Source: a virus. From it: a DNA stretch of 53,296 nt. The DNA lies in the IMG/VR virus record IMGVR_UViG_3300049484_000358, positions 1 to 53,296 of that record; one strand, 5' to 3'. Each line of letters opens with the position of its first letter. The stretch's first letter is position 1. This document shows, piece by piece, positions 1 to 53,296 of the stretch. Made by a program: the position numbers and the translations under genes. Below the pieces are notes generated by a model. That model was not told the DNA's origin, did no database searches, and saw nothing but the letters and a program-made list of their open reading frames with translations.

Positions 1-58
1 ACCCACACCCCCCCCCCCCCCCCCGGGGGGGGGGGGGGCCGGAAGATGTTTTTCAATC
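1..58. other. Homopolymer contig end
   Basis: A run of 17 C (8-24) is followed directly by 14 G (25-38). This is unlike the AT-rich sequence that follows and resembles a sequencing or library artefact more than a phage terminus. No gene lies here. The other contig end also has a G run, so the true genome ends or circular junction cannot be judged. Confidence 0.6.
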
Positions 59-74
59 TAGATATATCATACTC

Positions 75-330
75 CTTTTTTGTAATGAAGAACATCAGCT
101 ATTCTGTCACTTTTTGTAATGAAAGATTTTCAATGTTTTTATATGACATTCATTACATTTGTCATGCCAAGTAGTATGACATTTGTAATATTTTGTCATA
201 TTTTATGACATTTGATGTGATTGTAATGGTGTTTCATATGATTGTCATGCTGAAAAGCTGATGAAAGTAATTAAAATGTGTAACATTATACAAGAATGAA
301 TGTCACATTATACAACCTGACATTTGACTC
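75..330. repeat. TGTMATR iteron and operator cluster
   Basis: Very AT-rich non-coding DNA with repeated 7-mers of the form TGTAATG or TGTCATG on both strands: 81-87, 115-121, 151-157 (reverse), 160-166, 184-190, 194-200, 204-210 (reverse), 222-228, 243-249 and 301-307. Several are part of TGACATTTGT boxes like the early operators of the right arm, for example 177-186. Reverse-strand TATAATG repeats lie at about 284-313. The array could be a replication origin or a regulator-binding hub; the sequence does not decide which. Confidence 0.5.
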
Positions 331-679
331 TTTTTATCATGATTTTTATTTCCAGCAGTGGACAAAGCCCGAAAATAATTTTTGGGGAAAATTTGAAAAT
401 CATTTTCGGCGGCTCCCAGCTCTCCGGTTCCCTGTGCACAATTCACACCGATTACGTTAATTGTCTACAAACTGAAAATCTAAAAGTTTAACAATTAACA
501 CCTGTTATCTGCACAACTGCACACCTGACCACCACCAAGAAACTGCTAGAAACTGGGCTATTCTCCTCTCAGACAAAACATGTTATAATTAAACAGGCAG
601 CCGGTCTGCAGTTCTACTCGCACCTTTGCCTCTCCACGCTTTCGCGTGAAAACCCTGCTGGCAATGACCAAGGAGCACC
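331..679. other. Non-coding leader before the terminase operon
   Basis: No credible reading frame. It holds an inverted repeat around 369-411 (arms CCGAAAATNA), an 8-bp inverted repeat TTAATTGT/ACAATTAA (457-464 and 491-498), a promoter at 549-590, and a CCCTGCTG heptamer-type word at 653-660 just before the ribosome site of the first gene. Confidence 0.5.
549..590 (+). promoter_or_regulatory. Late-type promoter upstream of terminase genes
   Basis: A perfect -10 box TATAAT (584-589) preceded by TG (extended -10, 581-582). A TTCTCC element (561-566) sits 17 bp upstream at the -35 position. The block ACTGGGCTATTCTCCTCT (552-569) recurs exactly at 6501-6518, again 14 bases before TATAAT. Identical sequence and spacing in two places supports a real phage promoter class. 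Confidence 0.75.
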
Positions 680-1414
680 ATGCCCTCTTACGATTTACTT
701 CACCACACTGCCCAAGAGCAACATTTGACCGACCTTGAGCTGCGTTTTGTTATGCAATACTTAATTCATTTCAATGCAAAACGAGCCGCCGCAGAGGCGG
801 GGTACAATAGTGATCGACCTGGCGGCATAGCCGCTGAACTACTGCATAAACCCTATATCGTCAACGTCATCAAACAACGAATGAAAGACATGGTGATGGA
901 CGCCGACGAGGCCCTCGCCCGCTTAGCAGCCATTGCCCGGGCGGACATAACCGACTTTTACACTCTAAACCCTGCTACTGGTTTTTGGGAACCCGACATC
1001 CAGAGAATCAAAGACTCTGGAATGGGCTTCCTCGTTCGCAAAATTGAGCAAAACCGCTTCGGGACGTTAAACGTGGAATTCTACTCCGCCACAGAAGCTA
1101 TCCAATTAATCGCTAAGAATTTGGGCCTGCTTAAAGACGTGCCGCAGATCAACTTGAACGTGGCCCTTGGTGAATGGGCCCAATTCGTCAAGAAAGCCCG
1201 TGAACTGCCCCAGCCGGTTTCCAAGCTGCCGCCCGGTGCGGAAGAGGCTTACGCAAAACTCCGCCGTGACGTGGCGAACGCCGACATCGACCCCATGTCC
1301 ATCGGCCACTCCATCGATTCCATCGGAGATCCCACGCAACCCCTGCCAGACTCCACTTTGGCGGACATCATCGATGGCACCTTCACCGACAAACCCACCA
1401 CCGAAACCGACTAA
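680..1414 (+). CDS. terS: Terminase small subunit
   Basis: 244 residues. Probable small terminase, which recognises phage DNA and recruits the large subunit for packaging. The N-terminal part (about residues 15-75) has the helix-turn-helix pattern of the Terminase_2 family (LRFVMQYL, N-AKRAAAEAGY, a gap, then AAELLHKPYIVNVI). The C-terminal third is acidic and low in recognisable domains. The start is supported by an AAGGAG ribosome site at 670-675. It lies directly before the large terminase and its stop shares one base with that start (TAATG). First gene of the late operon, about 90 bases after the promoter. Confidence 0.85.
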   Translation: MPSYDLLHHTAQEQHLTDLELRFVMQYLIHFNAKRAAAEAGYNSDRPGGIAAELLHKPYIVNVIKQRMKDMVMDADEALARLAAIARADITDFYTLNPATGFWEPDIQRIKDSGMGFLVRKIEQNRFGTLNVEFYSATEAIQLIAKNLGLLKDVPQINLNVALGEWAQFVKKARELPQPVSKLPPGAEEAYAKLRRDVANADIDPMSIGHSIDSIGDPTQPLPDSTLADIIDGTFTDKPTTETD

Positions 1415-2880
1415 TGCAGCAGTCCCAAACCCTCACGGACTCCGACATCGACGCCTCTCTCCGCGAGGCGGAAATCTCACCCGCTGACGTGCTCTTCGAT
1501 CCCGAAGAATTCGCTGCCCATTTCCTGTGGATTCTCAACAAACAAAAGCAATCCACCCTGCTCCGCTACAACGCCGCCCAACGCCACTTCATGGCCCACC
1601 GAACTGGGCGTGACTTAATACTTAAAGCTCGCCAACTGGGTTTCTCCACCGCTGTGCAAGGCGAGATGTTCCGCCGCGCCATCACCAGTACTCGTACCAC
1701 GATGACAATGGCGCATGACGATCAAACCACCCAAAAACTCCGCCGCATCCAGGAACGGTTCTGGGAACACTGCCGCATCGCCACCGTCCAACCCGCCCGG
1801 GCCATCTCTAATGCGGTGTTGGTAACCTATCCGGACTTCGACTCCACTTGCGTAATTGCCACTGCTGGTTCGAAGGAAGCGGGTCGTGGTGACACATACA
1901 CTGACTTCCACGGCAGTGAAGTGGCATTCTGGCCCGATGCCGAACGCATCCTCGCAGGCGCGATGCAGGGTGGTGATCCCGACGTCGTACTCGAGTCCAC
2001 ACCAAATGGTTCCGTTGGTTGGTTCTATGAACGATGTATGGATGCCATGCGCGGTGATCCCACGTGGAAACTCCATTTTTATCCGTGGTGGTGGGACGTA
2101 GACTACAAACTGCCGCTCGCCGAAAATGAAAAGTTGGAATTCGACGATGAGGAAAAATATCTAATCGGTGAATACAACCTAACGGCAGAACAGATAAAGT
2201 GGCGCCGAAAAAAGAAAAGTGAACTCAAACGCCTCTTCCCACAAGAATATCCCGAATCACCCGAACTCTGTTTCCTCGGCAGTGGCGATTCCTACTTCGG
2301 TGACATCGAACGCTCCTTCGCCGCTCCCGCTTACGCGGAACCCAAACTGCTGTCGGAAGTTCGTGAATCAGGATTGGAAATTCCGCCTCACAAATACTCC
2401 GCCGGCCTCGACTGGGGCCAAGAAAATGATTACACTGTACTGTCAATACTTGACATCACTACAAAACAACAAGTGGATTTGTATCGAGTTAATCGACTCA
2501 GCTGGGGTGAAATTCGCAAACGCGTCGCCACCCGTCTCCATCACTGGGGTATCAAAACAGTCGTGGCGGAAGCCAACAGCATCGGCAGTGTAAACATCGA
2601 AGAACTTCGCAAACTCGAAATTTCCGTCGTCCCCTTCAACACCACCAACACCACCAAGTCCGACTTAATGTCCGACTTGTACAACGCTCTCCACGAAGAA
2701 AATTTAACCCTGCTGTCGCAACCTGACATCAAACACCAATTCAATTCATTTGTATCCACAAAACTTGCATCTGGTGCATGGCGCATCGCTGCCTCTGGCC
2801 ACGGCCACGACGACATCGTAATCGCCACCGGCCTTTCGTGGTTTGCGCGCAAATACATAAAGGTGCAAGTATGGCCGTAA
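1414..2880 (+). CDS. terL: Terminase large subunit (ATPase/nuclease)
   Basis: 488 residues. The packaging motor ATPase and DNA-cutting nuclease. The ATPase region has a Walker A-like element in LILKARQLGFST (about residues 67-80) and an acidic Walker B-like stretch around TDFHGSEVAFWPDAERI (about 165-180). The nuclease (RNase H-like) half shows SAGLDWGQENDYT (about 330), VVAEANS (about 387) and the late aspartates in GHGHDDIVIATGL (about 463). Length is normal for the family. It overlaps the small subunit by one base and the next gene by 10 bases. Confidence 0.93.
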   Translation: MQQSQTLTDSDIDASLREAEISPADVLFDPEEFAAHFLWILNKQKQSTLLRYNAAQRHFMAHRTGRDLILKARQLGFSTAVQGEMFRRAITSTRTTMTMAHDDQTTQKLRRIQERFWEHCRIATVQPARAISNAVLVTYPDFDSTCVIATAGSKEAGRGDTYTDFHGSEVAFWPDAERILAGAMQGGDPDVVLESTPNGSVGWFYERCMDAMRGDPTWKLHFYPWWWDVDYKLPLAENEKLEFDDEEKYLIGEYNLTAEQIKWRRKKKSELKRLFPQEYPESPELCFLGSGDSYFGDIERSFAAPAYAEPKLLSEVRESGLEIPPHKYSAGLDWGQENDYTVLSILDITTKQQVDLYRVNRLSWGEIRKRVATRLHHWGIKTVVAEANSIGSVNIEELRKLEISVVPFNTTNTTKSDLMSDLYNALHEENLTLLSQPDIKHQFNSFVSTKLASGAWRIAASGHGHDDIVIATGLSWFARKYIKVQVWP

Positions 2881-3197
2881 AAGTCGAACCCCAATTAAAA
2901 CCCACTGCTGGCATGATCACCATTCCAATTACCTATGGTATTTGGATTATTGGTCAAGGATGGCTTCGTGACACCAACGGCCGTTACTTCGCAGACCCCC
3001 GACTCGACTACGCCAAAACTGCACTGAAAATGTGGGTGGTAAACAAAAACACTGCGCGCATTGAACTGATCGACGATAGTATGATCGGTTTACAATCATT
3101 GTTTATTGAACGAGAACGGTATAAAATTGAACAGCGTGCAAGTAACAAGTCGTTGTTGTCCCGATTACGGAGATACTTATATGGCTTACTGGGATGA
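2871..3197 (+). CDS. Hypothetical protein between terminase and portal
   Basis: 108 residues; not recognised. It starts inside the end of the large terminase gene (AAGGTG ribosome site six bases before ATG) and runs 17 bases into the portal gene, so it is translated as part of the packaging/head operon. The C-terminus is basic (RASNKSLLSRLRR). No transmembrane segment or zinc motif is obvious. Position suggests an accessory packaging or head protein, but this is inference. Confidence 0.7.
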   Translation: MAVKVEPQLKPTAGMITIPITYGIWIIGQGWLRDTNGRYFADPRLDYAKTALKMWVVNKNTARIELIDDSMIGLQSLFIERERYKIEQRASNKSLLSRLRRYLYGLLG

Positions 3198-4737
3198 ATT
3201 ACGCCAATCAGATGCATACAAACCGTATACGGGAGAAAAAACCCACTCTACGGCTTTCGCCGCTCAATATCCACTTTATGAGCAGCAAACACCACAATAC
3301 ACTTCGCCCTCACCTTATTCACTAGCGCAGCAGGGTTATCGTACCAACACCCTAATTTACGCATGCATTGAAAAACGCCTGCGTGCTGTCGGTGGTGCAC
3401 CGATGCTCATTTACGATACCACATCATCTTTGCCAACAGTTGTGAATGGGCTTAAAGAGCACGGGGTTCTAAAGAATCCCAATGATCGTTTAAGTGAGCG
3501 GCAGTTCTGGCAGATCACCCAATTATATCTCGACATCTCAGGCTTTTCCGCCTGGGAAATCGAATTTAACAATGCTGGTGAACCAATTCGTTTATGGCCG
3601 ATGCGCTCCGATTGGTGTTCGTTTATGCGAGGCGACGGCCGTCCACTGCGTGCCGTCCGCTACCAGCCATACGGACTTCCATACCAAGACATACCGATCG
3701 AAAACGTCCTACTCTTCCAGTACTTTGATCCGCTCTTCCCACTGCTGAAAGGCTATAGTCCGACTATGGCCGCCCTGCGGGATATTTCTGTCGATAGCGG
3801 TATGACCCAATTCCTGTACAAATTCATTAGTGAAGGTGCGAGATTTTCCGGGTTGCTCACCACCGAACAAGACTTAGATGACATTGAAGCGGAACGCATT
3901 AGACAACGGTGGACCACCCAGCATGGTGGTGTTGAAAATTGGAATAACATCGCCGTACTTGGTCGTGGTGCTTCGTACCAAAACACCAGCATGAGTTTTA
4001 ATGATATGGCTTTTCCAGAACTCGATGGACGTACTGAAGCGCGCATTTGTATGGCATTCGGAATTTCACCAATTCTTATTGGTACCAAAATTGGTCTTGA
4101 TGCTTCAACATACTCCAACTACGCGCAAGCTCGTCGGGCGTGGTATGAAGAGTGGGTTACACCGCAGTGGGAATTCTTAGCCGAACAGTTTGGGTCACAA
4201 ATGCTTCGAACAGAAAAACCTGGTGGCGTGTATGTTGCAAATACCGCATACTCCTGTGCATTCAATACCAGAAATGTAGCCGCCCTGCAAGAGAATAGGG
4301 ACTTAGCATTTCGCCGTGCAGTATCCGCCGTGCGCGCGAACCTGCTCACTCGCGATCAAGGCCTGCAGGAAATTGGTCTCGATCCCGTGGATAACAAACG
4401 TGTTTACATCGGCGCCGCAATCCGTGTCGGCGAAGATACCACCGGAACGTTACTATCAAATATCGAGGGAGTGGATATCGACGATATAACTCCAGATGGT
4501 GAAGATTCACAAGGAGACTTTGCAGTTACCAATAGTGTATTTGGTACCGGTAAAGAACAGCAGTTTCCAAATGACCTGCAAACGGCAGATCCAGCGCAAG
4601 CGTTGGAAGAACGGCAGTTTAAAGCTTTCGCCCACAAACGCATTCGTGAAGGTAAACCCGAAGAGCTTCACAACTTCAGTTGGAAAAACACGCCTCCAGC
4701 GCAAATACCCCTGCTGATTGAAAAATATTCAAAATGA
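3181..4737 (+). CDS. Portal protein
   Basis: 518 residues. Portal, the twelve-part ring at one capsid vertex through which DNA passes. The pattern NTLIYACIEKRLRAVGGAPMLIY (about residues 53-76) and the following NPNDRLSERQFW segment are typical of HK97-type portals (Phage_portal family). The central AFGISPILIG stretch (about residue 300) is also usual. Start chosen at 3181 because an ACGGAG ribosome site is eight bases upstream; an in-frame start at 3106 lacks one. Order TerS-TerL-portal supports the call. The stop overlaps the next start as ATGA. Confidence 0.93.
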   Translation: MAYWDELRQSDAYKPYTGEKTHSTAFAAQYPLYEQQTPQYTSPSPYSLAQQGYRTNTLIYACIEKRLRAVGGAPMLIYDTTSSLPTVVNGLKEHGVLKNPNDRLSERQFWQITQLYLDISGFSAWEIEFNNAGEPIRLWPMRSDWCSFMRGDGRPLRAVRYQPYGLPYQDIPIENVLLFQYFDPLFPLLKGYSPTMAALRDISVDSGMTQFLYKFISEGARFSGLLTTEQDLDDIEAERIRQRWTTQHGGVENWNNIAVLGRGASYQNTSMSFNDMAFPELDGRTEARICMAFGISPILIGTKIGLDASTYSNYAQARRAWYEEWVTPQWEFLAEQFGSQMLRTEKPGGVYVANTAYSCAFNTRNVAALQENRDLAFRRAVSAVRANLLTRDQGLQEIGLDPVDNKRVYIGAAIRVGEDTTGTLLSNIEGVDIDDITPDGEDSQGDFAVTNSVFGTGKEQQFPNDLQTADPAQALEERQFKAFAHKRIREGKPEELHNFSWKNTPPAQIPLLIEKYSK

Positions 4738-5270
4738 TAACCATTGAGATAGACGTTCAAGACGTTAAAGAATTGTACGAGGATTTAACCCCTCGTCGAA
4801 TTGCTATTGCTTTACGACGAGCCGTAAAACGTTTATCACCATTAGCCATAGAATATGCAAGCCAACCTACTGAAGGTTGGGATCATGATGTATCCTTTTT
4901 AGTTCGTCCAAATGTTCATGCTGGATCCGATGAAGCTAGTCTTGAAATATCCACTGATGATGAAATATATAATTGGATAGATAAAGGAACTCCTCCACAC
5001 AAGATTGTTGCTAAACGTGGAAAATCACTGAAATTTTTGGGCGAACCTAATAAAATGTATCAACCAAAAACGATGCCGTACAGTTTAGCATCGCAAGAGT
5101 TGATATACGAAGGTACTGAAATACAACCAGCTTATGTAATGCATCCTGGAGTTGAAGCTCGTGAATTTGGACCTGAAATTCTAATGTATCTATATCCAGA
5201 TATGGTACCAATAGTGCGTGAAGAATTATCGGCTGCATGGTCACGCCAGCAAAACTATAGACCGAGATAG
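4734..5270 (+). CDS. HK97 gp10-like protein
   Basis: 178 residues. Resembles the HK97 gp10-like group of tail-completion or neck proteins. It has a helical N-terminus, then WIDKGTPPHKIVAK (about residues 82-95) and the characteristic late motif AYVMHPGVEAREF (about 137-149). Here it lies right after the portal instead of after the connectors, which is less common. ATGA overlap with the portal gene shows coupled translation. The fold assignment rests on the HPG-x-EAR-F motif alone. Confidence 0.6.
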   Translation: MITIEIDVQDVKELYEDLTPRRIAIALRRAVKRLSPLAIEYASQPTEGWDHDVSFLVRPNVHAGSDEASLEISTDDEIYNWIDKGTPPHKIVAKRGKSLKFLGEPNKMYQPKTMPYSLASQELIYEGTEIQPAYVMHPGVEAREFGPEILMYLYPDMVPIVREELSAAWSRQQNYRPR

Positions 5271-5280
5271 TGGAGGTTAG

Positions 5281-5784
5281 ATGTTACTCAAACCTGAAAT
5301 TCGAAATATGTTGAAAGAACAAATTACCGTAGAACTAACTAATATGGCGTTCTATAGGCAGTGCGGCCTGGTTTTGGACAATGCGGGCTGGTTTGGATCA
5401 GCCAAATGGTTCTTAAAACAGTCATCGGAAGAGCAAGAACACTCCGATACTATCGCCAAGTACTTCTTGGACCGTTCAAGGGACGCTGACCTTGGGGTGA
5501 CTTTTTATAGCCATGTTATAGTACCTGATCTGCCAGAAACTGTCCTGTTATCCATGTTTCAAGCTGTTTATGTAGCTGAATTGGCTAATACGGAACGCCT
5601 CTTAGGCATTTATGAAGCCGCTATGATGACTATGGACTTCCAAACAACCTCATTCCTACATAGTTTTATTATTGAGCAATCAAATTCTGAAGCGGAAATA
5701 ACAACCCTGCTGGCCAGGTTGGAAACAATGACCGGTGACCGTGCTGCCTTAGAGGCATTTGATCAAAGTCTAGTGATAGACTAA
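5281..5784 (+). CDS. Ferritin-like iron-storage protein
   Basis: 167 residues, the usual length of a bacterial ferritin. Ferritins oxidise Fe(II) at a di-iron centre and store the iron inside a protein shell. The four-helix pattern and ferroxidase ligands are visible: E18, then E51-x-x-H54 in SSEEQEHSDTIAKYF, E100 in VYVAELANTE, and Q133 in SFIIEQSNSE, matching the E17, E50, H53, E94 and Q127 set of E. coli FtnA. A GGAGG ribosome site precedes ATG. It is an unexpected gene among head genes, between the gp10-like protein and a methyltransferase. It could be a virion component or an infection-time iron handler. The family call is strong; the role is unknown. Confidence 0.85.
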   Translation: MLLKPEIRNMLKEQITVELTNMAFYRQCGLVLDNAGWFGSAKWFLKQSSEEQEHSDTIAKYFLDRSRDADLGVTFYSHVIVPDLPETVLLSMFQAVYVAELANTERLLGIYEAAMMTMDFQTTSFLHSFIIEQSNSEAEITTLLARLETMTGDRAALEAFDQSLVID

Positions 5785-5811
5785 TTATTCGGCAATGTAC
5801 CGGAGGTACCA

Positions 5812-6498
5812 ATGAGTAAGTTAGCGCAAGATCTTAAAACGCATATCCTGCAAGGTGATCCATACGAGAAGTTTGACTGGAGAAAATATCCAGATGATAT
5901 ATCTGGAGGTGAAATTTATCCAGACATGAAAGAAATTCTCGACTTGGTGAAACCTAATTTTGTAATTGAAGTTGGAACCTGGAAAGGTGCATCAGCTATA
6001 CATATGGCAGATGTACTTGCAATGCAGGGTAACAAAGATTTTACGATTCTTTGTATTGATACGTGGTTAGGTTCAATTGAACATTATATCATAGATCCAA
6101 GTAATCCCACTTGGGGGTTATCTGAACGAGTGTTCGGTGTTCCAACTACATATTATCAATTTCTTTCAAACGTTTGTCGTCGGGGCCTGCAGGAAAATAT
6201 CGTTCCATTTCCTAACACATCAGCAATCGCATATCAATGGTTTGTAATGCAGGAATCGCTGCAAGCTGATTTCATTTTCATTGATGCCGATCACAGTGAA
6301 GATGAGTGTTATCTCGATATTAAACGATGGTACGAAATGCTAGCTCCTGGTGGTGTTATGGCTGGTGATGATTTTGATCCGGCTTTTCATGGCGTCATTG
6401 CTGCTGTAAATAAATTCAGTCGTGAAATGCATCTTAAGTTCATTCGAACAGAATACCGACATTGGATGATTCAAAAACCTCCAATTAAAAACTCATGA
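5812..6498 (+). CDS. Class I SAM-dependent methyltransferase
   Basis: 228 residues. Rossmann-type methyltransferase of the Methyltransf_24/CmcI-like kind, which use S-adenosylmethionine on small molecules, sugars or lipids. Visible motifs: FVIEVGTWKGASAIHMA (motif I, about residues 53-69), ILCIDTWLGS (about 80-90), FIFIDADHSEDECYLDI (about 153-169) and LAPGGVMAGDD (about 178-188). A GGAGG site precedes the start. It ends just before the second late promoter. The substrate is unknown; it could act on virion glycans or a host metabolite. Confidence 0.8.
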   Translation: MSKLAQDLKTHILQGDPYEKFDWRKYPDDISGGEIYPDMKEILDLVKPNFVIEVGTWKGASAIHMADVLAMQGNKDFTILCIDTWLGSIEHYIIDPSNPTWGLSERVFGVPTTYYQFLSNVCRRGLQENIVPFPNTSAIAYQWFVMQESLQADFIFIDADHSEDECYLDIKRWYEMLAPGGVMAGDDFDPAFHGVIAAVNKFSREMHLKFIRTEYRHWMIQKPPIKNS

Positions 6499-6540
6499 AA
6501 ACTGGGCTATTCTCCTCTTGGGGTTTTCATGATATAATTA
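6497..6540 (+). promoter_or_regulatory. Second late-type promoter, before the capsid genes
   Basis: Repeats the promoter at 549-590: block ACTGGGCTATTCTCCTCT (6501-6518), a 14-base gap, then TATAAT (6533-6538) with an extended TG (6530-6531). The intervening bases differ between the two copies, so the conserved parts are functional rather than a recent duplication. Here TGAAAAC and GTTTTCA also form an inverted repeat around the -35 region (6496-6529). It would boost protease and capsid expression. Confidence 0.75.
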
Positions 6541-6580
6541 GTTAGTAAGGACACAGCGTCCGGTTTACGGAGAAATACGC

Positions 6581-7366
6581 ATGAATGATACAGTTAAAAA
6601 CGCAATGCAAGCAGCCGCCAAAGTAATGTCGGCTACTGGTGACGAATCTGGTGGAAACTGGATCCTGTCCGATGATAAAAAATCCAAAGTTTGCAAAGAC
6701 TGCGGCGTGTCATTTGGATTAAATGAAAAACACGAATGCAAACCTGCTGGAAAATCTTTGGATGTCACTTACGCCAAATCCATGGGACTTGGTATTCCGG
6801 ATGACCAGCTTTCAAAACTTCTGGCGGTTAAAACTGTTGGGACAAATCGTATTTTTCATTATGCGTTTTTATGGGGTAACCCAAACGTCACTGACATTGA
6901 ACAAGAATACTTCACCAAATCCACAGATTTGTGGGATAAGGTTATGAAGGGTGTAACCCGCCCGCTGACCTGGGACCACGCAATGGATCTGTCCATGAAA
7001 GCCGATCCAGTCATCGGTAAAACTTTGGAATATGGCGATGATGATCTTGGCCGTTGGGCTATTTCACAGTTGGATACCGCCCATGCATATCGGGCTGCGA
7101 TCGACATGCTGATTGAGGCGGGTGTGCTCGGTAGTTCGAGTGATTCAGCTCCACAGTATGTTGAAAAAGTGCAAACAGGTAAATCATACTGGCTTAAGAC
7201 GTGGCCGTGGTTTGCTACTGCTTTGACGGTAACACCCTGCGAACCTCGCATGGTTGAGACCGTCGATTATTTTAAATCGATCGGGATTGAAATTCCAAAC
7301 CCAGAGGCGCCTGTGTCGCAGACGCGGGAAATGGTTCTAAAAGCCCGTCGTATTTTCACTCTTTAA
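6581..7366 (+). CDS. Prohead protease with N-terminal zinc-finger-like segment
   Basis: 261 residues. Probable capsid maturation serine protease (HK97 prohead protease type), which trims the capsid precursor. Candidate catalytic residues are H133 in PLTWDHAM and serines 185-187 in GVLGSSSDSAP; YWLKTWPWFATALTVTPCEPR is the expected downstream block. The N-terminus is unusual: C38-x2-C41-x9-H51-x-C53 looks like a small zinc-binding module. The gene has a GGAG site and follows the second late promoter, directly upstream of the capsid gene. Confidence 0.8.
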   Translation: MNDTVKNAMQAAAKVMSATGDESGGNWILSDDKKSKVCKDCGVSFGLNEKHECKPAGKSLDVTYAKSMGLGIPDDQLSKLLAVKTVGTNRIFHYAFLWGNPNVTDIEQEYFTKSTDLWDKVMKGVTRPLTWDHAMDLSMKADPVIGKTLEYGDDDLGRWAISQLDTAHAYRAAIDMLIEAGVLGSSSDSAPQYVEKVQTGKSYWLKTWPWFATALTVTPCEPRMVETVDYFKSIGIEIPNPEAPVSQTREMVLKARRIFTL

Positions 7367-7379
7367 TTGGAGAAAAGGT

Positions 7380-8780
7380 ATGACTACTAAGTTGCAAGTT
7401 GAACTCAAAAACCTCCGGGATCAAGCGCTCCAGATCGAAAAAGATCAGGGCGAAGCCTCGTGGACGGAGGATGCTCTCAAAACCTATACTGGCATCGTTG
7501 ATCGTGCCGAGGTTATTCGCTCTCAGATTGATGCTCAGACCCGCATGGATGCGGTGAAGAAATGGTCTGAGGAATCTGATGGTCGTTCATTTGTCAATGC
7601 AGGGTTTAACCGCGTTGCCGGTCCTGGTGAAGGCATCATCCCTGGCGTTGGTGATGACAATGGTGAGATGGTTGCGTACAGTGAAGTTGGCGAGCAGAAC
7701 CTCGCCATTCTCAAGTCCGCCGCTTACCGTGATGCTTATGCCCAGCACATCCGCGCCAAATCCAAATACGGTCCCGATTGGCGGGCTGGTTTAAAAGCCG
7801 GCGCTATGAAGGTTCTTTCCGCGGGTACTGATGAGTCCGGCGGCTTTTGGATGCCTCCAGATTACCGCAGTGAACTGATCAAGAAAATGGCCGCCGGCGC
7901 GACTGTTCGCCCAAATGCCACCGTTATCACTACCGGTACTGACCTGGTCACCTTCCCGACGGTTAAGTACACCACCGATCAGAAGTATACCTCTGGTGTT
8001 CGTTTTGCTTGGAATGGTGACGCCCCTGCCGCAAACATTTCAGAATCGACGAACCCAGTTGCTGGACGCGATTTGATTCCAGTCCATGTAGCTACCGCCG
8101 CGATCTTCCTGGCCCGTTCAATGATGGAAGACAACAGCTTCGACGTTCTCGGATACATTTCCGAGCTCATGTCCGAAGCCTTCACCTTGGGTGAAGAAGA
8201 CACTTTCTGGACCGGCGATGGTGCAGGTAAACCAGAGGGTATTATGTCTCATGCACAGGCCGCCGTTGCTAATGGAACTGGCGACGGTATGCTGATCAAT
8301 TCTGGCCATGCCACGGGTATTGTGTGGGGTGCAACAAATGCTCCTACGACTTACGTTACCAAGGGTGTTCTCGGCCTGGAAAATGCACTGCCTCCGCAGT
8401 ACGAAAACAACGCCAAGTGGTTCGCCAACAAGAATACCTATTCCACGATTCGTGGATTGGTTGACAGTCAGGCTCGCCCGCTGTGGCAGCAGACCGACGC
8501 TCCAGGTCTCACCAACTACGTTAGGGGTCTCCCCTCCACCTTGCTTGGTTATGACGTTGTAAAGAGTCAGTTCCTCGCCGATCTCGGTGTAGGCGGCAAC
8601 AAGGCTATGGCCTTCGGCGATCTTCGCGGTTACTACATCGCCGATCGTGTTGGTATCTCTATCGAGGTCTTCCGTGAAGTTCTCGGCCTGCGTGACCTGG
8701 TTGCCGTGTATGCCCGCAAACGCGTTGGTGGACAACTGCTCCACCCCTGGCGCGTCAAGGTCATGCAGTGCGCTGCGTAA
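7380..8780 (+). CDS. Major capsid protein (HK97 fold)
   Basis: 466 residues. Shell-forming capsid protein. The first 130 or so residues are helical and charged (LKNLRDQALQIEKDQGE), as in HK97 proteins whose N-terminal delta domain acts as a scaffold and is removed by the protease. The mature part probably begins near MKVLSAGTDESGGFWMPPDY (about residue 141). Later blocks WTGDGAGKPEGIM (about 278-290) and YYIADRVGISIEVFRE (about 420-435) are typical of the family. Codon use is more GC-rich than in neighbouring genes, as expected for high expression. Ribosome site GGAGAAAAGGT. Confidence 0.93.
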   Translation: MTTKLQVELKNLRDQALQIEKDQGEASWTEDALKTYTGIVDRAEVIRSQIDAQTRMDAVKKWSEESDGRSFVNAGFNRVAGPGEGIIPGVGDDNGEMVAYSEVGEQNLAILKSAAYRDAYAQHIRAKSKYGPDWRAGLKAGAMKVLSAGTDESGGFWMPPDYRSELIKKMAAGATVRPNATVITTGTDLVTFPTVKYTTDQKYTSGVRFAWNGDAPAANISESTNPVAGRDLIPVHVATAAIFLARSMMEDNSFDVLGYISELMSEAFTLGEEDTFWTGDGAGKPEGIMSHAQAAVANGTGDGMLINSGHATGIVWGATNAPTTYVTKGVLGLENALPPQYENNAKWFANKNTYSTIRGLVDSQARPLWQQTDAPGLTNYVRGLPSTLLGYDVVKSQFLADLGVGGNKAMAFGDLRGYYIADRVGISIEVFREVLGLRDLVAVYARKRVGGQLLHPWRVKVMQCAA

Positions 8781-8839
8781 CCTCCTAAGGTTAACGTCCA
8801 ACTCATTGAAAACAAGACGAACCAAAAAGGAATTAACAA

Positions 8840-9220
8840 ATGAACTCCAAACAGTACGAAGTAAAAACCCTGCTGAACTCCGCAGGAGCCACCCAAGCGG
8901 CGGCTGGTACCACTCAGGATCTTGGATCTTCACCGTCGATTCAACGGCGTGAGGTGAAGGTTATCGTTGGGTCCCAGGTTTTGACAGCCGGAACTTTCCC
9001 GCTGACCTTAACCGAATGTGACACGACCAACGGGACGTTCTCCGCCGTCGATGGTGATTCTATTGTCAGTGTTACGGCGACTCAGGCCGCTGTGGCTGTG
9101 GCCGAATACCACGTCAAACCCGCCAAGCGGTACATTAAGGCCTCGATCGGAACCGTCTCCGGTACCGGTGCCGCCGCAAACCTGCTTGTTTTGATGCTGC
9201 CGCTTAAACGGCACGCTTAG
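8840..9220 (+). CDS. Putative capsid decoration/head protein
   Basis: 126 residues. No certain family. Beta-rich, small and Ala/Thr/Gly-rich, lying 60 bases after the major capsid gene, where decoration proteins that stabilise the capsid surface are usually found. An AAAGGA ribosome site precedes ATG. A strong hairpin follows the stop, suggesting that capsid and this gene form the highly expressed end of a transcript. The role is inferred from position. Confidence 0.55.
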   Translation: MNSKQYEVKTLLNSAGATQAAAGTTQDLGSSPSIQRREVKVIVGSQVLTAGTFPLTLTECDTTNGTFSAVDGDSIVSVTATQAAVAVAEYHVKPAKRYIKASIGTVSGTGAAANLLVLMLPLKRHA

Positions 9221-9242
9221 TCCAGTCTCCCTCATTCTGGGC

Positions 9243-9272
9243 GTCCCGGCGGTTAGCAATAACCGCCGGGAC
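9243..9272 (+). terminator. 13-bp hairpin with GCAA tetraloop
   Basis: GTCCCGGCGGTTA (9243-9255) pairs perfectly with 9260-9272 around a GCAA loop, a stable GNRA tetraloop. It is followed by A residues, not a T tract, so it is either a U-poor terminator or an mRNA-stabilising/processing structure after the capsid genes. Confidence 0.65.
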
Positions 9273-9282
9273 AAAAAAGAAA

Positions 9283-9450
9283 ATGAAAAAAGTAATAACC
9301 CTGCTGAATGATGCACTAGATGAATTGCGAAAAACGAAACCTGGCGACAGGTCTGATCGTGATCGTAAGTATGCTATTTGCATAACTCAGACAGAAATTT
9401 TAATTGCTATCATATCCGGTTTATTTTCAAAAGAGGTTATCAATGAATAA
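9283..9450 (+). CDS. Small hypothetical protein
   Basis: 55 residues starting MKKVITLLNDALDELRK; not recognised. Helical and charged N-terminus with a hydrophobic helix near ILIAIISGLF. It begins 10 bases after the hairpin and overlaps the next gene start by 8 bases, a coupled arrangement that argues for real translation. The CCCTGCTG word occurs within codons 6-8. Confidence 0.55.
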   Translation: MKKVITLLNDALDELRKTKPGDRSDRDRKYAICITQTEILIAIISGLFSKEVINE

Positions 9451-10135
9451 CACGATTTATTATGCATTTTTATGTGAACGTGCTGGAGCCGCCAATGACC
9501 AGTGTTTCAATGCAGCATTGGATGTCGCAGACCATTGCGGTTTAAATGGTTACAAACACATGCGGCTTGGGTACTCCAGAACTGATTATGCTCGCAATCA
9601 GTTTATGGCGTCATTTTTACAAAATTCAACTCGTGATAACGATTTATTAGTTATGCTTGATGGCGATCACAAACACCCTGCCGATATTGTAAGCAGGTTT
9701 GCGGCGCATGATCCACAAAAAGGTGTTGTTGGGGCATTGGCATATCGTCGCAGTGAACCTTACGATCCACTGTTTTTCTTACGTGTTAGCGGTGGTTTAC
9801 ATTCTTTAAGTGAATTCGAATTAGGCATTGTATATGCTTGTGCCATTGTTTCTACGTCAGCTATTTCTATTCGGCGGTGGGTTTTACTTGAACTGCTTCA
9901 AAAAGGTTGCACGCCACCGTGGTTTAGATACGAATATCCAGTGGATAAGTCTGAACCGTCGGAAGATATGTACTTTGGCCGAATCTGTGAACAATCTGGA
10001 ATTTGGCATTACTGTGACACATCCATTGTTATTCCACATTCAACACTTACAATGGTTGATAGTAGCGTCAATCAAGCATTTTTGCAGAGTCACCCAGAAC
10101 TTGTTTCTACAAAATCAATCGAGGTCACTGCATGA
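9443..10135 (+). CDS. Glycosyltransferase (GT-A type)
   Basis: 230 residues. Probable nucleotide-sugar-dependent glycosyltransferase. Signature: RTDYARNQF (about residues 46-54), then DNDLLVMLDGDHKHPADI (65-82) with the metal-binding DGD (73-75), and a late acidic PSEDMYFGRI. The start at 9443 has an AGAGG site; an upstream TTG in the same frame has none. ATGA overlap with the next gene. Placed between capsid and connector genes, it may glycosylate capsid or tail proteins. A role in DNA modification is possible because the phage seems able to make hydroxymethylcytosine, but late-gene location argues against it. Confidence 0.7.
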   Translation: MNNTIYYAFLCERAGAANDQCFNAALDVADHCGLNGYKHMRLGYSRTDYARNQFMASFLQNSTRDNDLLVMLDGDHKHPADIVSRFAAHDPQKGVVGALAYRRSEPYDPLFFLRVSGGLHSLSEFELGIVYACAIVSTSAISIRRWVLLELLQKGCTPPWFRYEYPVDKSEPSEDMYFGRICEQSGIWHYCDTSIVIPHSTLTMVDSSVNQAFLQSHPELVSTKSIEVTA

Positions 10136-10977
10136 CAACGATATACGGAGATTATTCAAATTTACGTGACACTCGTGAAATATACTTGGATAGTGCACAA
10201 ATAGGTGATGATACCCTGCTGCTTTCTATGATTCAACAGGCATCTGTTGACATCGACAGCATTTCACATCGCCGATTTTATCCGGTACTCGAAACTCGAA
10301 AATTTGATGCTCCATATTATTCGTATGATCTGCAGTTAAATGATGAAATTTTAGATGTTGACTCTGTTATTAATGGTAACGGTGATTCTTTAACTGTTTC
10401 AGATTTGGTACTCGTACCATACAATACTCTAACGCACCGTGTAATACGTTTATTACCAACAATATCTACATGGATAAACGGTCCATCAGGATTTCCATAT
10501 GCGGCCATATCAGTTACTGGTACGTGGGTTCATGCAGCGGATTACACAACTGGTTGGATGAGTATAGATACTTTGGATGCAGGTTTATTGGTTGGTGCTG
10601 CATCATTTACTGCGTCTCCTGGCGTGTTTTTTGCTGGAATGATTTTAAAAATCGACAGCGAATTTATGTATGTGTCATCCGTGACGGTGGCAGTTCCTCC
10701 TGGGACTACCGTTGATACCGTTTATATTACTCGAGGTATCAACGGTAGTGTCGCCGCCGGTCACTTAATAACTACAGCGGTGTATAAATGGAACCCAGGC
10801 CGTGATATAACCCTGCTGGCCGCTTCTGCGGCGGTGGCCTATTATCACTTAAAATCCAACCCTTCTGGAAATTCATACACTCTTGACGGTGTAACTTTTG
10901 AAACACCAAAAGATGTAACAGAATTTATTCGTACTCGACTTGTTCAATTAAATCTTATTCGGTTAGGTGTAGGATGA
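10132..10977 (+). CDS. Head-tail connector (gp6-like adaptor)
   Basis: 281 residues. The N-terminal 60 residues (DTLLLSMIQQASVDIDSISHRRFYP) match the pattern of phage head-tail adaptors that sit below the portal. The C-terminal helical part (ITLLAASAAVAYYHLKSNP, about 225-243) is also usual. A beta-rich insert of about 100 residues (TTGWMSIDTLD...) makes it longer than the typical 100-200-residue adaptor. ATGA overlaps on both sides tie it to the connector operon. Confidence 0.65.
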   Translation: MTTIYGDYSNLRDTREIYLDSAQIGDDTLLLSMIQQASVDIDSISHRRFYPVLETRKFDAPYYSYDLQLNDEILDVDSVINGNGDSLTVSDLVLVPYNTLTHRVIRLLPTISTWINGPSGFPYAAISVTGTWVHAADYTTGWMSIDTLDAGLLVGAASFTASPGVFFAGMILKIDSEFMYVSSVTVAVPPGTTVDTVYITRGINGSVAAGHLITTAVYKWNPGRDITLLAASAAVAYYHLKSNPSGNSYTLDGVTFETPKDVTEFIRTRLVQLNLIRLGVG

Positions 10978-11447
10978 CAATTGCGACTATTCGATTACGA
11001 TTAGCTAGTCTTCAAGCCTCCATACCTGGTGTTATAAAAGCATATCCTCAGCTACCTCGTGGTATTGTAAAAACAAACGAAATGCCGTTATTTATGACGT
11101 TTGTTAGAGAAGCCGATTACGATTTGGACACTGTTGGTGATGGTGATTTTATTACCAATAGAACATATCTTATGTGGCTTTTAGTAAAACCTGTGGCTGA
11201 AGGTGAGGAGGGTGAAGGTGAATCATTAGCAGAACCTTGGGTTGAAACTGTGGCTAATTTCTTTTTAGCACGTCCATCGTTGGGAAATCTTACTGGAATA
11301 ATGAATTCCTATATGATAAAAGATTCGGGTCCCAAAAAATTAGTATGGCCCGGAACGCCAGCAAACCCAACTGGAGTATATTGGGGAGTTGAATTTCAGC
11401 TCCGTGTAGCTGAATTTACAAAACGCATTTATGCGAATAATGAGTGA
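10974..11447 (+). CDS. Putative head closure/tail completion protein
   Basis: 157 residues; no firm family. Its position between the adaptor and the major tail protein is where head-closure and tail-terminator proteins are encoded. The segment WGVEFQLRVAEFTKR near the C-terminus fits the short beta-strand ends of such proteins. ATGA overlap with the upstream gene. Function inferred from position. Confidence 0.55.
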   Translation: MTIATIRLRLASLQASIPGVIKAYPQLPRGIVKTNEMPLFMTFVREADYDLDTVGDGDFITNRTYLMWLLVKPVAEGEEGEGESLAEPWVETVANFFLARPSLGNLTGIMNSYMIKDSGPKKLVWPGTPANPTGVYWGVEFQLRVAEFTKRIYANNE

Positions 11448-11455
11448 GGTAAAAC

Positions 11456-12286
11456 ATGGCCAATCCGTCTAGCATTAATTCAGGTGTTGGTTTTCGACAC
11501 TCTCAGATTCTTCGGCTCGATGCCAACGGCATTATTTATGCTACTGGTACAACGGCCTATGAGGGTATCGAAGTTACTGGTGGCAAGACTCTAACGATCA
11601 ATGATCCAGAGCCTCGCCAAATCGTCCACGTCGGTGATGATAGCATTTTCGCTCTCGACGTCCTACCTCCGGTTGAACCGATCTCCGGTGAACTCAGCGC
11701 AGGAAAAACGGCTAACGCTTTAGATGCCCTGCTGTCCAACGTGAATGAAGTAACCGTTGGTGAATCCCTGCTGTTCCCAATCGGTACTAACCGCCGTGGT
11801 GATGAAGCTACGGTGGCAATGCTCGCTTTCCGCCAAGCTCTTGACACAGATCCAGCCAGCGGTAATTACGGCAAACGTGTATGGCAGCTTCGGTTATTCC
11901 CCCGCTGCTATGTCATTCCCCGTGAGTCTGGTTTTGAAGACAACGCCGAGGAACGAATGTACACCATCCGGCCTCAGTTTGTCACCAAGTATCCTTGGGG
12001 CGTAACTCTTGCTCTGGCGACTGAAGGTGCTGTTCGCATTCAGGGCGCTCGTGGCATATCGGAATACAAACCGAAATTATTAGCGTGGGTTACAAACAAC
12101 ACCCAAACCCAGTTCACGTTCCCAACCAACTTCGCAGCGGCAACCACCGGAAAGATTAAAACCTGGTTGGTTAATACCACTGGTGTTGGTGCTGTAAGCA
12201 CTGCAACTACGTTGACAACCACGACTATTTCCTATTCCACGGCTCCGACAACCGGAACTTTGGTGGCCTGGTACGAAACGAACTAA
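11456..12286 (+). CDS. Major tail protein
   Basis: 276 residues. Probable tail-tube subunit. Residues 1-190 are beta-rich and typical in composition. The C-terminal part (about 200-276, YKPKLLAWVTNNTQTQFTF then Thr-rich strands) looks like an added beta-sandwich domain exposed on the tube. GC-richer, highly expressed codon use like the capsid gene. A GAGGT site precedes ATG. It is followed by the frameshifted chaperone genes and the tape measure, the standard siphovirus order. Confidence 0.75.
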   Translation: MANPSSINSGVGFRHSQILRLDANGIIYATGTTAYEGIEVTGGKTLTINDPEPRQIVHVGDDSIFALDVLPPVEPISGELSAGKTANALDALLSNVNEVTVGESLLFPIGTNRRGDEATVAMLAFRQALDTDPASGNYGKRVWQLRLFPRCYVIPRESGFEDNAEERMYTIRPQFVTKYPWGVTLALATEGAVRIQGARGISEYKPKLLAWVTNNTQTQFTFPTNFAAATTGKIKTWLVNTTGVGAVSTATTLTTTTISYSTAPTTGTLVAWYETN

Positions 12287-12312
12287 TTCAGATTGAGGGA
12301 GATTGGATAATT

Positions 12313-12690
12313 ATGGAGACCAAAGTTGTCTCATACAGAAAGAATGGCGAAGAAATCTATCGCCTGATTATTTCAGAAGAGACTGCAATATCTCGTTTGC
12401 GCCGCGGCAGTTTAAAACTCGATGCCGTAAAAAACGAGAGTACCGATCCTGATTTGCGTATTATGCATTTGGTATTTTATCCAGATTGCATTGCAGGTGT
12501 AATTGACTGGGGTTCAATGATAAAACCCACATTCGAAGAATTTGCACTGCTGCCTGGACAATTCGTCGATGATTGGGCCACTGCTGTTTGGGAATTAAAT
12601 CCTGATTGGCAACCACAGATTGATGCTGATGCAGTTAAAGAGGCTCTCGAAGAAGACGAAAAAAAACCATCGAACTCAACCAGCGATTAA
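12313..12690 (+). CDS. Tail assembly chaperone (gpG-like, short product)
   Basis: 125 residues. Counterpart of lambda gpG: a chaperone that coats the tape measure before tail-tube assembly. Not recognised by sequence; assigned from size, place between major tail protein and tape measure, and the slippery A-run at its end. The normal stop is TAA at 12688-12690. The C-terminus is acidic with EALEEDEKKPSNS. Confidence 0.75.
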   Translation: METKVVSYRKNGEEIYRLIISEETAISRLRRGSLKLDAVKNESTDPDLRIMHLVFYPDCIAGVIDWGSMIKPTFEEFALLPGQFVDDWATAVWELNPDWQPQIDADAVKEALEEDEKKPSNSTSD

Positions 12691-12917
12691 TTAAAGTAGT
12701 AAAACCTGATGATACAATAGATGAAGAACGTAAACCTCTTCATATTAAAAATTTAGATGCTTCGTGGAGTAATTGGATAACATGGAGATTTTTTAATAAA
12801 TCGGTTTTACCTTTTAGCGGTGGTTTTATGGAACAGCCAACATGGATTATCGAAGATATGATGGTCATAGAAGCTGAGTACATTCGAGTTGAAAAGGAAT
12901 TAAATGCCAGAGAATGA
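12313..12917 (+). CDS. Tail chaperone long form by -1 frameshift (gpGT-like)
   Basis: Predicted 201-residue fusion. Translation follows the short chaperone to codon 118 (12666), slips back one base on A-AAA-AAA, and continues from 12666 in the -1 frame (first new codon ACC) to TGA at 12915-12917. The extension has 83 codons without a stop and protein-like content (HIKNLDASWSNWITWRFF, EQPTWIIEDMMVIEAEY). It has no start codon in a sensible place of its own. The -1 frame ends 14 bases inside the tape-measure gene. This is the known G/GT arrangement of long-tailed phages. Confidence 0.8.
12660..12666 (+). promoter_or_regulatory. Slippery heptamer A_AAA_AAA
   Basis: Eight consecutive A residues (12659-12666) in codons GAA AAA AAA CCA of the chaperone gene give a canonical -1 slippery site. 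The -1 frame downstream stays open for 83 codons until just past the tape-measure start. Confidence 0.8.
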
Positions 12918-15786: not shown

Positions 15787-16169
15787 CAGCTGCATACGAA
15801 TATAAAATCGGAACTACATATGGTGGGTTGACAAATCTTGAAGATATGGCAACTCCAATACCTGCGCCAAAACATTCGTTAATCGAGTATTCTAAACCTA
15901 CTATACTTGGCGATACAACAGTTAGAGGACTTGGTTGGCGAAGAACTACCTGGCATTGGGACTTTTTAACTCAAGCGCAGTACACTGCACTTCGCGTATT
16001 ATGTGCGGCGCTAAGTTCATTTGTTTACATAAACACCCGTAAAAATGATGGATCATATCAAGTGTACACTGCAACTATGATATGGCCAGCCAATGAACCG
16101 GAATTTGTAAACAACAAGTTGCTCGACATTGATGTAGAGTTTAGAGCTCTGTTGGAGTACACTCCATGA
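15783..16169 (+). CDS. Distal tail / minor tail protein
   Basis: 128 residues. No certain family, but its size, beta-rich character and position between tape measure and the large tail-tip protein match lambda gpM-like or distal tail proteins. The end ATMIWPANEPEF...LDIDVEFRALLEY resembles minor tail proteins that form the ring at the tip. ATGA overlaps with both neighbours. Confidence 0.6.
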   Translation: MTAAYEYKIGTTYGGLTNLEDMATPIPAPKHSLIEYSKPTILGDTTVRGLGWRRTTWHWDFLTQAQYTALRVLCAALSSFVYINTRKNDGSYQVYTATMIWPANEPEFVNNKLLDIDVEFRALLEYTP

Positions 16170-19078: not shown

Positions 19079-19079
19079 T

Positions 19080-20399
19080 ATGAACACACCACAAGTACGC
19101 CGCAAACTACAAAAATCATTTGATCGTAAGCAGGATAAATATCCCGCTATTCCTGGTGTTCTTGGAAATGCCGACGGTATAGTCGAAGTTCCTGGTATTC
19201 CGACAAATGTTTACGTTACAATATCGGATAACGTAATTATTGTTTATGCTAGATCATCAATTCAACGAATACCAGGTTTACCGGTTTTGGTGGGTTATGA
19301 CCAAGATCAACCGACGTTTATGCAGGTTTTAACTGTTCGTCAAACGGATGTTGAATTGGTTTATTATGATAACAACGTTAGTAATCACCATACCCAACAT
19401 GAATGGCCGGAATACGATACGGTATATACAAATATTCGGCAGATATTACCACTGCGTATAAGCACGTCATCGGCATTTAATGTTTCAATTTATCCGGGCG
19501 TTGTTTGGTGCGACAACACATTGCTAATCATTGCCACAGCTACTTTTGATCTATCGGCACAAGTACCAATAACCACCAACAAAGCGCGTCTTGTGTGGTT
19601 TACAATAAACACCGCTGGTACAATTGTGCAAACAAATGGTGCCGAAGTAGATACCGAAGATTTAGATAATACTGTATTACCAACTTTTCCAACTGATACG
19701 CAGTTTATAATTGGAGCCGTAAGGCTTTTTTACGGACAGCAGGTGTTGAGCGACGCAATTACTGGTACCGATATACTTGATCTGCGGATGCCTATGTGGC
19801 ACACCCATAACTTGGCTCTTATTGGAATACACAGCAATGGTTTTCGTTTAACTAGTAGTGGTACATCATGGGATGACATGCGTATTGCAGGTTCATCAAT
19901 ACGCTCAGGTGTAACAGCCCCTACTCTTGGAACCTTTGGACCCAGCGGTAGTTTACGGGTATGGCGTTTTGAAAGTGGTAAACATCAAGAGTGCGAATTT
20001 GAAATTCAAATGCCTCACAATTGGAAAGAGGGTAGTCGTATATACCCGCATGTTCATTGGACACCTGTAAGTGCAACAGCAGGTAATGTTGTGTGGGAAT
20101 TGGAATACTCGTGGGCAAACATTGGTGGTACATTTGGTGCACCTGGTAACATGGCAAATACGGCACAAGCCGCGGGTGGAACAGCATGGGTACATAAACT
20201 TGCACCCCTGCTGGAGGGCGGTAATGACTACATCGACGGAACAGGCAAAACAATTTCGTCAATGTTAGTAATGCGGTTACATCGTAATGCCGGTAGTGGT
20301 GGTGATACTCTTGCAGCGGATGTCGCGCTGCTGGAGTTTGACATTCATTACGAAATTGATTCATTTGGTAGTGATTTGCCGACACAAAAAACAGCCTAG
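19080..20399 (+). CDS. Tail structural/receptor-contact protein
   Basis: 439 residues; not firmly recognised. It begins one base after the preceding stop. A short helical basic N-terminus (RRKLQKSFDRKQDKYP) is followed by an all-beta body. The C-terminal half (GTSWDDMRIAGSSIR... LRVWRFESGKHQECEFEIQMPHNW... ALLEFDIHYEIDSFGS) looks like a jelly-roll domain found in phage tail-tip accessory proteins. Probably part of the tip complex with the 970-residue protein. Confidence 0.55.
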   Translation: MNTPQVRRKLQKSFDRKQDKYPAIPGVLGNADGIVEVPGIPTNVYVTISDNVIIVYARSSIQRIPGLPVLVGYDQDQPTFMQVLTVRQTDVELVYYDNNVSNHHTQHEWPEYDTVYTNIRQILPLRISTSSAFNVSIYPGVVWCDNTLLIIATATFDLSAQVPITTNKARLVWFTINTAGTIVQTNGAEVDTEDLDNTVLPTFPTDTQFIIGAVRLFYGQQVLSDAITGTDILDLRMPMWHTHNLALIGIHSNGFRLTSSGTSWDDMRIAGSSIRSGVTAPTLGTFGPSGSLRVWRFESGKHQECEFEIQMPHNWKEGSRIYPHVHWTPVSATAGNVVWELEYSWANIGGTFGAPGNMANTAQAAGGTAWVHKLAPLLEGGNDYIDGTGKTISSMLVMRLHRNAGSGGDTLAADVALLEFDIHYEIDSFGSDLPTQKTA

Positions 20400-52926: not shown

Positions 52927-53241
52927 TTACTGGGCGTCAACCAAGCTGGCGTTCACGAAGTCCTTGCGGGCGTCGCGGGCGGGTTTCGCGGGAGCCGCGT
53001 TCCAGCGGGGGGACAGAGAGGCGAATTTCCCGATTTGCGAAGCCGTGGCACCCGGGTGGGCGGCAAGGAACTCGTCGGACATGAAGTACTCAATGTTGGC
53101 CTTGCGGTTGTGGGTGAACCCGTCGGACACCCGGCACCAGCAGTGGATGTAGCGGCGCAGATAATCTTCGGACACGACATCGCCATCACTGTTGACGATA
53201 CCAAACCGATTCAAACCAAACTTCTCGAATTTCGTAGCCAT
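52927..53241 (-). CDS. Paralogue C of the three-member phage family
   Basis: 104 residues, the shortest member, nearly the core alone: RFGIVNSDGDVVSEDYLRRY (12-31), IHCWCRVSDGFTHNRKANIE, YFMSDEFLAAHPGATASQIGK (about 52-72), then a short Pro/Ala/Lys-rich tail. GGAG site before ATG. GC-rich. The contig ends 55 bases upstream, so its promoter is not in the window. If the genome is circular or permuted, the leader at 39-350 could supply it. Confidence 0.8.
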   Translation of the reverse strand: MATKFEKFGLNRFGIVNSDGDVVSEDYLRRYIHCWCRVSDGFTHNRKANIEYFMSDEFLAAHPGATASQIGKFASLSPRWNAAPAKPARDARKDFVNASLVDAQ

Positions 53242-53296
53242 GATGATCTCCTTTCAAGATCAGAGGGGGGGGGGGGGAGGTAGTTTTTTTTCAATA
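53242..53296. other. Contig end with G run
   Basis: After the ribosome site of the last gene (GAAAGGAG on the - strand) comes a long G run and a T run. Like the start of the window, this looks artefactual. No promoter is visible. Confidence 0.5.

Follow-up and report, generated by a model that had tools for sequence, protein, structure and literature searches.

A ferritin gene at a shared position among the head genes of a phage from IMG/VR and some of its relatives

The DNA analyzed here, called the window, is a linear IMG/VR virus record of 53,296 bases from an uncultured tailed phage. A ferritin gene lies in its block of head genes, which has the following features:

680 to 1414, plus strand: small terminase (PF03592, E = 4.8e-20)
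1414 to 2880, plus strand: large terminase (phrog_2, E = 9.2e-25)
3106 to 4737, plus strand: portal protein, with which relatives align from 3181 (PF04860, E = 1.8e-44)
4734 to 5270, plus strand: gp10-like small head protein, no family match, overlapping the end of the portal gene by 4 bases
5272 to 5276, plus strand: ribosome-binding site GGAGG, 4 bases 5' of the ferritin ATG (from the sequence)
5281 to 5784, plus strand: ferritin, 167 amino acids, ATG start (PF00210, ligand table and model)
5812 to 6498, plus strand: SAM-dependent methyltransferase, directly 3' of the ferritin gene (PF13578, E = 4.5e-16)
6581 to 7366, plus strand: putative prohead protease whose N terminus has a zinc-ribbon-like CxxC region (homology to a protein of relative L048)
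7380 to 8780, plus strand: major capsid protein (MCP), HK97 family (PF05065, E = 1.4e-48)

A preliminary description had placed the ferritin among head genes, and this was borne out: the gene is flanked by the gp10-like and methyltransferase genes, with the putative protease and MCP genes downstream. The stop of the gp10-like gene at 5270 and the ferritin start are 10 bases apart. The name gp10-like for 4734 to 5270 is our assumption from position; homologs were found at the same place in L004, L010, L012, and L014. A Methyltransf_24 gene also follows the ferritin gene in L043 (PF13578, 1.7e-10). The putative protease of the window has no Pfam match of its own above the cut-off. It shares 51% identity across 204 residues with its L048 counterpart, which scored 22.3 bits against Peptidase_S78 (cut-off 21). 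N-terminal zinc-ribbon-like CxxC pairs were seen in the proteases of close relatives (window 6581-7366, L004 9031-9999, L014 3045-3788). Between 2800 and 9300, promoter-like sites (11, vs 9.5 in shuffles) and terminator-like sites (8 vs 6.6) were not in excess. Because these signals match the shuffles, we infer a single head-operon transcript from gene spacing only.

The window protein matched the Pfam family PF00210 (Ferritin) with an E-value of 6.3e-19 and 68.7 bits (cut-off 24.5). A phmmer search of the PDB listed ferritins and bacterioferritins, the best match being the diatom ferritin PmFTN (1.6e-12), and the score against the NCBIfam FtnA model was 37.9 bits (cut-off 178). PHROG 16594, which carries a function-less label, matched both the window ferritin (3.3e-5) and the L004 ferritin (L004 5767-6243; 5e-6) along their length and, judged by these alignments, is probably a ferritin family. 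A chance origin of the ferritin call is excluded because of the E-value and because the same gene type occupies the same slot in relatives. The Pfam score, the PDB matches, and the modelled fold agree with the earlier assignment, and by sequence and model 5281-5784 encodes a genuine ferritin.

The fold was predicted by AlphaFold2 from an alignment of three viral ferritins, which gave five models with pLDDT from 56 to 87. The best model (pLDDT 87.1, pTM 0.82) had helices A (5-34), B (38-66), C (86-116), D (120-148), and E (154-163). The protein had been called four-helix, which is correct for the bundle, but the model adds the fifth helix at 154-163; a short E helix is a trait of 24-mer ferritins. 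A structure prediction without a shell interface had been considered beforehand, and the predicted structure is a ferritin fold with an E helix. Foldseek and VIA-align placed the model among ferritins (SynFtn, rmsd 1.5, TM 0.90), and comparison with solved structures gave Z scores of 23.1 for Thermotoga ferritin and 22.6 for E. coli FtnA.

The traits of the FTN class found in the window protein were the match above the PF00210 cut-off, the modelled bundle with helix E, and the site A/B ligands together with the Tyr. We take the marks of a bacterioferritin to be a heme Met beside the bridging Glu, and Glu and His at positions 127 and 130. The window protein was rejected as a bacterioferritin, the residue after E51 being Q52 and the 127 and 130 positions being Q133 and S136. 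Dps proteins are 12-mers without helix E. Their ferroxidase site lies at the dimer interface (PMC7762939), and the window protein, with retained intra-bundle ligands and a modelled helix E, was rejected as a Dps. It was also rejected as an EncFtn or Flp protein, which has two main helices and a C-terminal targeting peptide, since the model has five helices and nothing beyond helix E.

We compared the ligand residues with those of E. coli FtnA. E18, E51, H54, E100, and Q133 were located as previously described and aligned with E. coli E17, E50, H53, E94, and Q127. Additional ligand-type residues were Y25 (E. coli Tyr-24), E50, and E132. The statement that all ferroxidase positions are present held for these five, but Glu-130 is replaced by S136 and the site-C residue Glu-129 by N135; we take the set to be full only by an H-chain-like definition. 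Glu-130 completes site B in most bacterial ferritins, and site C consists of Glu-49, -126, -129, and -130, according to the source (PMC7762939). The window ferritin fails the typical bacterial FtnA subtype, lacking Glu-130 and the full site C and retaining E50 and E132. The missing Glu-130 bars the FtnA subtype but not the ferritin family, because SynFtn is also without Glu-130.

The core residues E17, E50, H53, E94, E126, Q127, and Y24 (E. coli numbering) were kept in all eight distinct viral ferritins, and the loss of ligands in all relatives that the preliminary description had allowed for was not seen. Position 130 was Ser or Ala in 8/8 viral ferritins vs 1/21 comparison ferritins (SynFtn). 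Glu-129 was retained in 1/8 viral vs 19/21 comparison ferritins, Glu-126 in 8/8 vs 19/21, and position 49 in the viral proteins was E or D. On these alignments the viral centre appears to resemble that of SynFtn, with site A intact, site B one carboxylate short, and site C weakened. We assume that it also resembles the centre of animal H-chains. SynFtn oxidizes iron via a mixed-valent intermediate, and a stress-response role is suggested for it in a review (PMC7762939).

Relatives of the window were gathered in IMG/VR scans that used the capsid, portal, and protease proteins as queries; their MCP identities ranged from about 70% (close) to 39-49% (distant). For the distant ones, we recognized the gp10-like gene from its size and its place after a Mu F-like gene (PF04233 in L049). 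A Pfam ferritin above the cut-off was found in 2/7 and 7/17 relative records (24), in addition to the window. Some contigs carried several labels (L009, L017, and L038 are L004; L019 is L010; L013 and L037 are L014; L062 is L048). The count was made on 13 distinct contigs spanning the gp10-to-protease region, leaving out duplicates or near-duplicates (L003 and L018 of L004, L045 of L044, L041 of L042, L051 of L050) and contigs that do not cover this region (L002, L010, L011, L012, L040, L052, L053). Seven of the 13 carried ferritin (window, L004, L043, L044, L047, L048, L049), and a Pfam ferritin was not found in the other six (L014, L039, L042, L046, L050, L054). Ferritin was also present in L010 and L018, both outside this count; L010 has gp10, recombinase, and ferritin, and then ends before the protease. 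The suggested search of related phages for the gene at the same locus was therefore positive in 7/13 spanning contigs plus L010, and the slot is shared by relatives with no more than 47-71% identity in the capsid protein. The ferritin gene directly follows the gp10-like gene in the window, L043, L047, L048, and L049, and comes after one small ORF in L044 or a tyrosine recombinase gene in L004 and L010. Ferritin is dispensable for assembly, because 6/13 relatives are without the gene. Its presence required four changes on the protease tree and on the MCP tree, with clustering no greater than for shuffled labels. Because presence needs no fewer changes than shuffled labels usually do, the gene has been lost or exchanged repeatedly.

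Other elements were seen in or near this slot. A Xer-like tyrosine recombinase gene lies after the gp10-like gene in L004 (4898-5770), L010 (9508-10371), and L012 (8970-9842), and adjoins ferritin in L004 and L010; the L004 protein scored 97.8 bits against NCBIfam XerC, below the cut-off of 335. L012 8549-8989, directly after the gp10-like gene, is a probable HNH endonuclease by eye. Between ferritin and protease, L004 7272-8294 encodes tandem repeats of about 24 residues, and L003, L004, and L018 differ there. The large terminase gene of L004 (19-2595) is split by an intein-like insert (LAGLIDADG 17.3 bits, below the cut-off).

In a tree of 29 rows, the eight distinct viral ferritins formed one side of a branch with support 91/92, which rose to 100/99 once four long-branch rows (Nocardia, Tsukamurella, SynFtn, PmFTN) were dropped. 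The window ferritin stood on a long branch. When only three viral ferritins were included, an earlier tree kept them apart (two changes), and a single clade was not rejected (p-AU 0.515). The comparison rows, 21 only, came from matches on plasmids, contigs of faecal origin, and the PDB; because they are few and picked, the nearest cellular donor is not pinpointed. Asn at E. coli position 20 and Ala at position 22 occurred in 8/8 viral vs 0/21 other ferritins, and Trp at position 36 in 8/8 vs 1/21. Pairwise identity between the viral lineages was 26-46%. All eight proteins stop 4-9 residues past the invariant Asp of the E-helix region and have no targeting tail. In coding-sequence comparisons, pN was 0.19 vs pS 0.82 for L004/L010 and 0.24 vs 0.78 for L047/L048, with pS saturated, which shows purifying selection on the ferritin in these two pairs. 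The simplest history would be a single acquisition in an ancestor of these phages, or transfer among them into this one slot, after which the genes diverged fast and some were lost.

Searches outside this group were also performed. A tblastn search of 50,697 phage records with the window ferritin returned four 'Bacteriophage sp.' faecal fragments, one of which (L005) looks like bacterial DNA by eye, and the L004 ferritin returned two 'Staphylococcus phage Kay' records. Neither set was counted as phage ferritins; the Kay matches equal S. aureus FtnA on a plasmid record (28.8% over residues 1-130), and L006, L007, L008, and L021 are among the records left uncounted. A shared-motif scan of 84,980 genomes found no cellular relative and a portal-based scan found no prophage, both being weak evidence as they need exact short patterns. 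A host of the window phage was looked for and none was found, and window 1-20000 had no near DNA match in any named phage.

The reading to which we assign a probability of roughly one half (0.52) is that this is a non-heme, 24-mer-type phage ferritin, made late with the head genes, that would act as a ferroxidase cage detoxifying and storing iron during infection of the cell. Its position after the gp10-like gene would give late, high expression. The subunits would form a cytoplasmic cage in infected cells and bind Fe2+ freed as host iron proteins turn over. This iron would be oxidized with O2 at the SynFtn- or H-chain-like, site-C-poor centre and stored as a ferric mineral. Phage DNA and enzymes would then suffer less Fenton damage during replication and packaging, and the cell would stay productive until lysis. 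As an accessory gene, ferritin may benefit the phage in certain hosts or conditions and disappear elsewhere. This reading builds on the family, the modelled five-helix fold, the ligands, the slot, and the constraint, and extends from them to a probable timing, cage, and benefit. Several points count against it: widely diverged phages retain the slot, although a protein that detoxifies iron in the cytosol has no need to be encoded next to the capsid protease; presence among relatives is patchy; and the structural model comes from three sequences, with a broad spread of pLDDT. Precedents have been reported, namely Dps and Mn-catalase in gut phages (PMC8008677), a bacterioferritin thought to be functional in a putative Bathyarchaeia virus (PMC10904782), and ferritin in giant-virus genomes (PMC7136201).

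The slot itself raises the question of a role in the particle, which the preliminary description had favored from the location. The cage or its subunits would enter or attach to the prohead, and the mature particle would carry ferroxidase or iron, like encapsulins. The fixed position between the gp10-like gene and the protease, with tight gene spacing, is suggestive of this. In L054, which is without ferritin, the putative protease (L054 2609-3829), a protein expected inside proheads, begins with a Cys-rich domain resembling metal-storage bundles. It was modelled as four helices (AlphaFold2 pLDDT 90.3, single sequence), and copper storage proteins were its top matches in Foldseek (E = 5e-4, TM 0.78) and in phmmer (1.4e-4, with heavy composition bias); it had no match in Pfam. 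BFVD gave weak Dps-like matches (E 0.04-0.12) in proteins named prohead protease, and encapsulins are described as HK97-fold shells with ferritin-like cargo (PMC8346489). However, the viral proteins consist of the ferritin domain alone and carry no evident targeting extension (8/8), they are of the classical five-helix rather than the two-helix encapsulated type, and the gene is missing in 6/13 relatives, so that we consider virion cargo unlikely, though a serious contender. It is quite doubtful that metal storage is built into head assembly, as ferritin or as a protease-fused copper-storage-like bundle on or in the prohead. If it were, virions would contain a metal buffer or bring ferroxidase into the cell along with the DNA, and such heads would parallel, in phages, the encapsulins that hold ferritin-like cargo.

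Patchy presence and a variable slot (recombinase in L004 and L010, an HNH-like gene plus recombinase in L012, methyltransferase in the window and L043) would also suit a host-captured ferritin without a lasting role, sitting in a tolerated late-operon insertion slot and exchanged among phages. An idle gene, however, should decay over such divergence, and here the ligands are kept at 26-46% pairwise identity, clade-specific residues are present, and pN is far below pS, which renders this account improbable. The absence of Glu-130 in 8/8 and of Glu-129 in 7/8 viral ferritins, and the length of the branch leading to the window protein, could reflect a non-storage di-iron enzyme (an oxidase or assembly factor) on the ferritin fold that has lost shell formation. 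We regard this as very improbable, since the model retains an E helix and SynFtn, a working cage ferritin, has the same Glu-130 change (PMC8743623). The Ferrojan Horse idea, raised in the preliminary description, would have ferritin iron on or in the virion used for entry via host iron-uptake receptors. It is a published hypothesis, and a Phyre2 'ferritin' is reported among the mass-spectrometry-detected proteins of phage Sajous1 (PMC10892097). But the ferritin gene lies in the head block, not the tail block, a mineral enclosed in a protein cage is no receptor ligand, and the Sajous1 study, which proposed the idea from its Phyre2 call, saw tonB and feoB mutants infected about equally well (PMC10892097). 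Nothing ties the ferritin of the window to the tail or to receptor use, and this idea is scarcely credible here.

The window ferritin was compared with known proteins and systems. SynFtn of Synechococcus CC9311 shares five helices with the window protein, has E33, E66, H69, E110, and Q143 at the ligand positions, and shares Ser at the Glu-130 position with viral ferritins; the branch joining it to the viral clade had support 81/86 and was not starred. It differs in being a cyanobacterial gene with about 24% identity and in having Ala where the viral ferritins keep Glu-126. PmFTN of Pseudo-nitzschia, the best PDB sequence match, shares Asn at 129 and Trp at 36, but it is a eukaryotic gene and keeps Glu-130. 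Bacterial FtnA (E. coli, Thermotoga) has the fold (Z 22.6-23.1) and the core ligands, but has Glu-129 and Glu-130 and is without the viral N, A, and W at E. coli positions 20, 22, and 36. Two BFVD ferritins, A0A8D9C9X5 (uncultured marine phage) and A0A8S5Q7U4 (Siphoviridae ctrzs15), matched the fold with TM 0.86 and 0.85 at 19-20% identity.

Among phage systems, the Dps and Mn-catalase proteins described in Gratiaviridae, Flandersviridae, and Lactobacillus phages (PMC8008677, PMC6669764) are likewise ferritin-superfamily iron/oxygen enzymes; however, they belong to other subfamilies, and the Lactobacillus gene is placed by its source near replication rather than head genes. Dps has been described in Lactobacillus and gut phages (PMC6669764, PMC8008677) and bacterioferritin in Flandersviridae contigs (PMC11780533). 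The putative Bathyarchaeia virus also has a virus-borne ferritin, but its protein is a bacterioferritin, and the available text of the source reports no head slot (PMC10904782). In encapsulin systems an HK97-fold shell gene adjoins a ferritin-superfamily gene, whereas the cargo is described as mostly two-helix Flp or other proteins with targeting peptides (PMC8346489, PMC5012862); in the window the shell gene belongs to a complete phage head operon, and the ferritin is a classical one that lacks a tail. The literature searched, in which subscription journals were thinly covered, contained no account of a phage with a classical ferritin encoded in its head operon. Ferritin-superfamily genes are known in phages, and what appears to be new is that full ferritins of a separate clade occupy one constant position in the head operon. 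Such phage genes have so far been read as scattered auxiliary genes; here there is one clade and one slot, and the phage-iron link becomes testable in one gene. Phages with this ferritin probably manage iron while particles are made, and the copper-storage-like domain on a relative's protease is a hint at a possible link between metal handling and head assembly.

Other features were observed elsewhere in the window. Positions 1-60 and 53237-53296 are C and G runs that look like sequencing or assembly artefacts. The protein encoded at 38480-39208 on the minus strand matches Pam3_Gp34 in Pfam (35.6 bits, cut-off 27), a family that takes its name from phage Pam3, and had no tblastn match in named phages. 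A PD-(D/E)XK nuclease (PF12705; 29113-29976, minus strand) has three clustered C-terminal cysteines, C272, C276, and C282, and from its sequence is possibly a Cas4-like Fe-S protein, although a cluster of four cysteines was not seen. The ferritin might supply this nuclease with iron, as the preliminary description had suggested. At the end of the plus-strand gene block, 26242-26907 encodes a Stf0-type sulphotransferase (PF09037, E = 7e-35).
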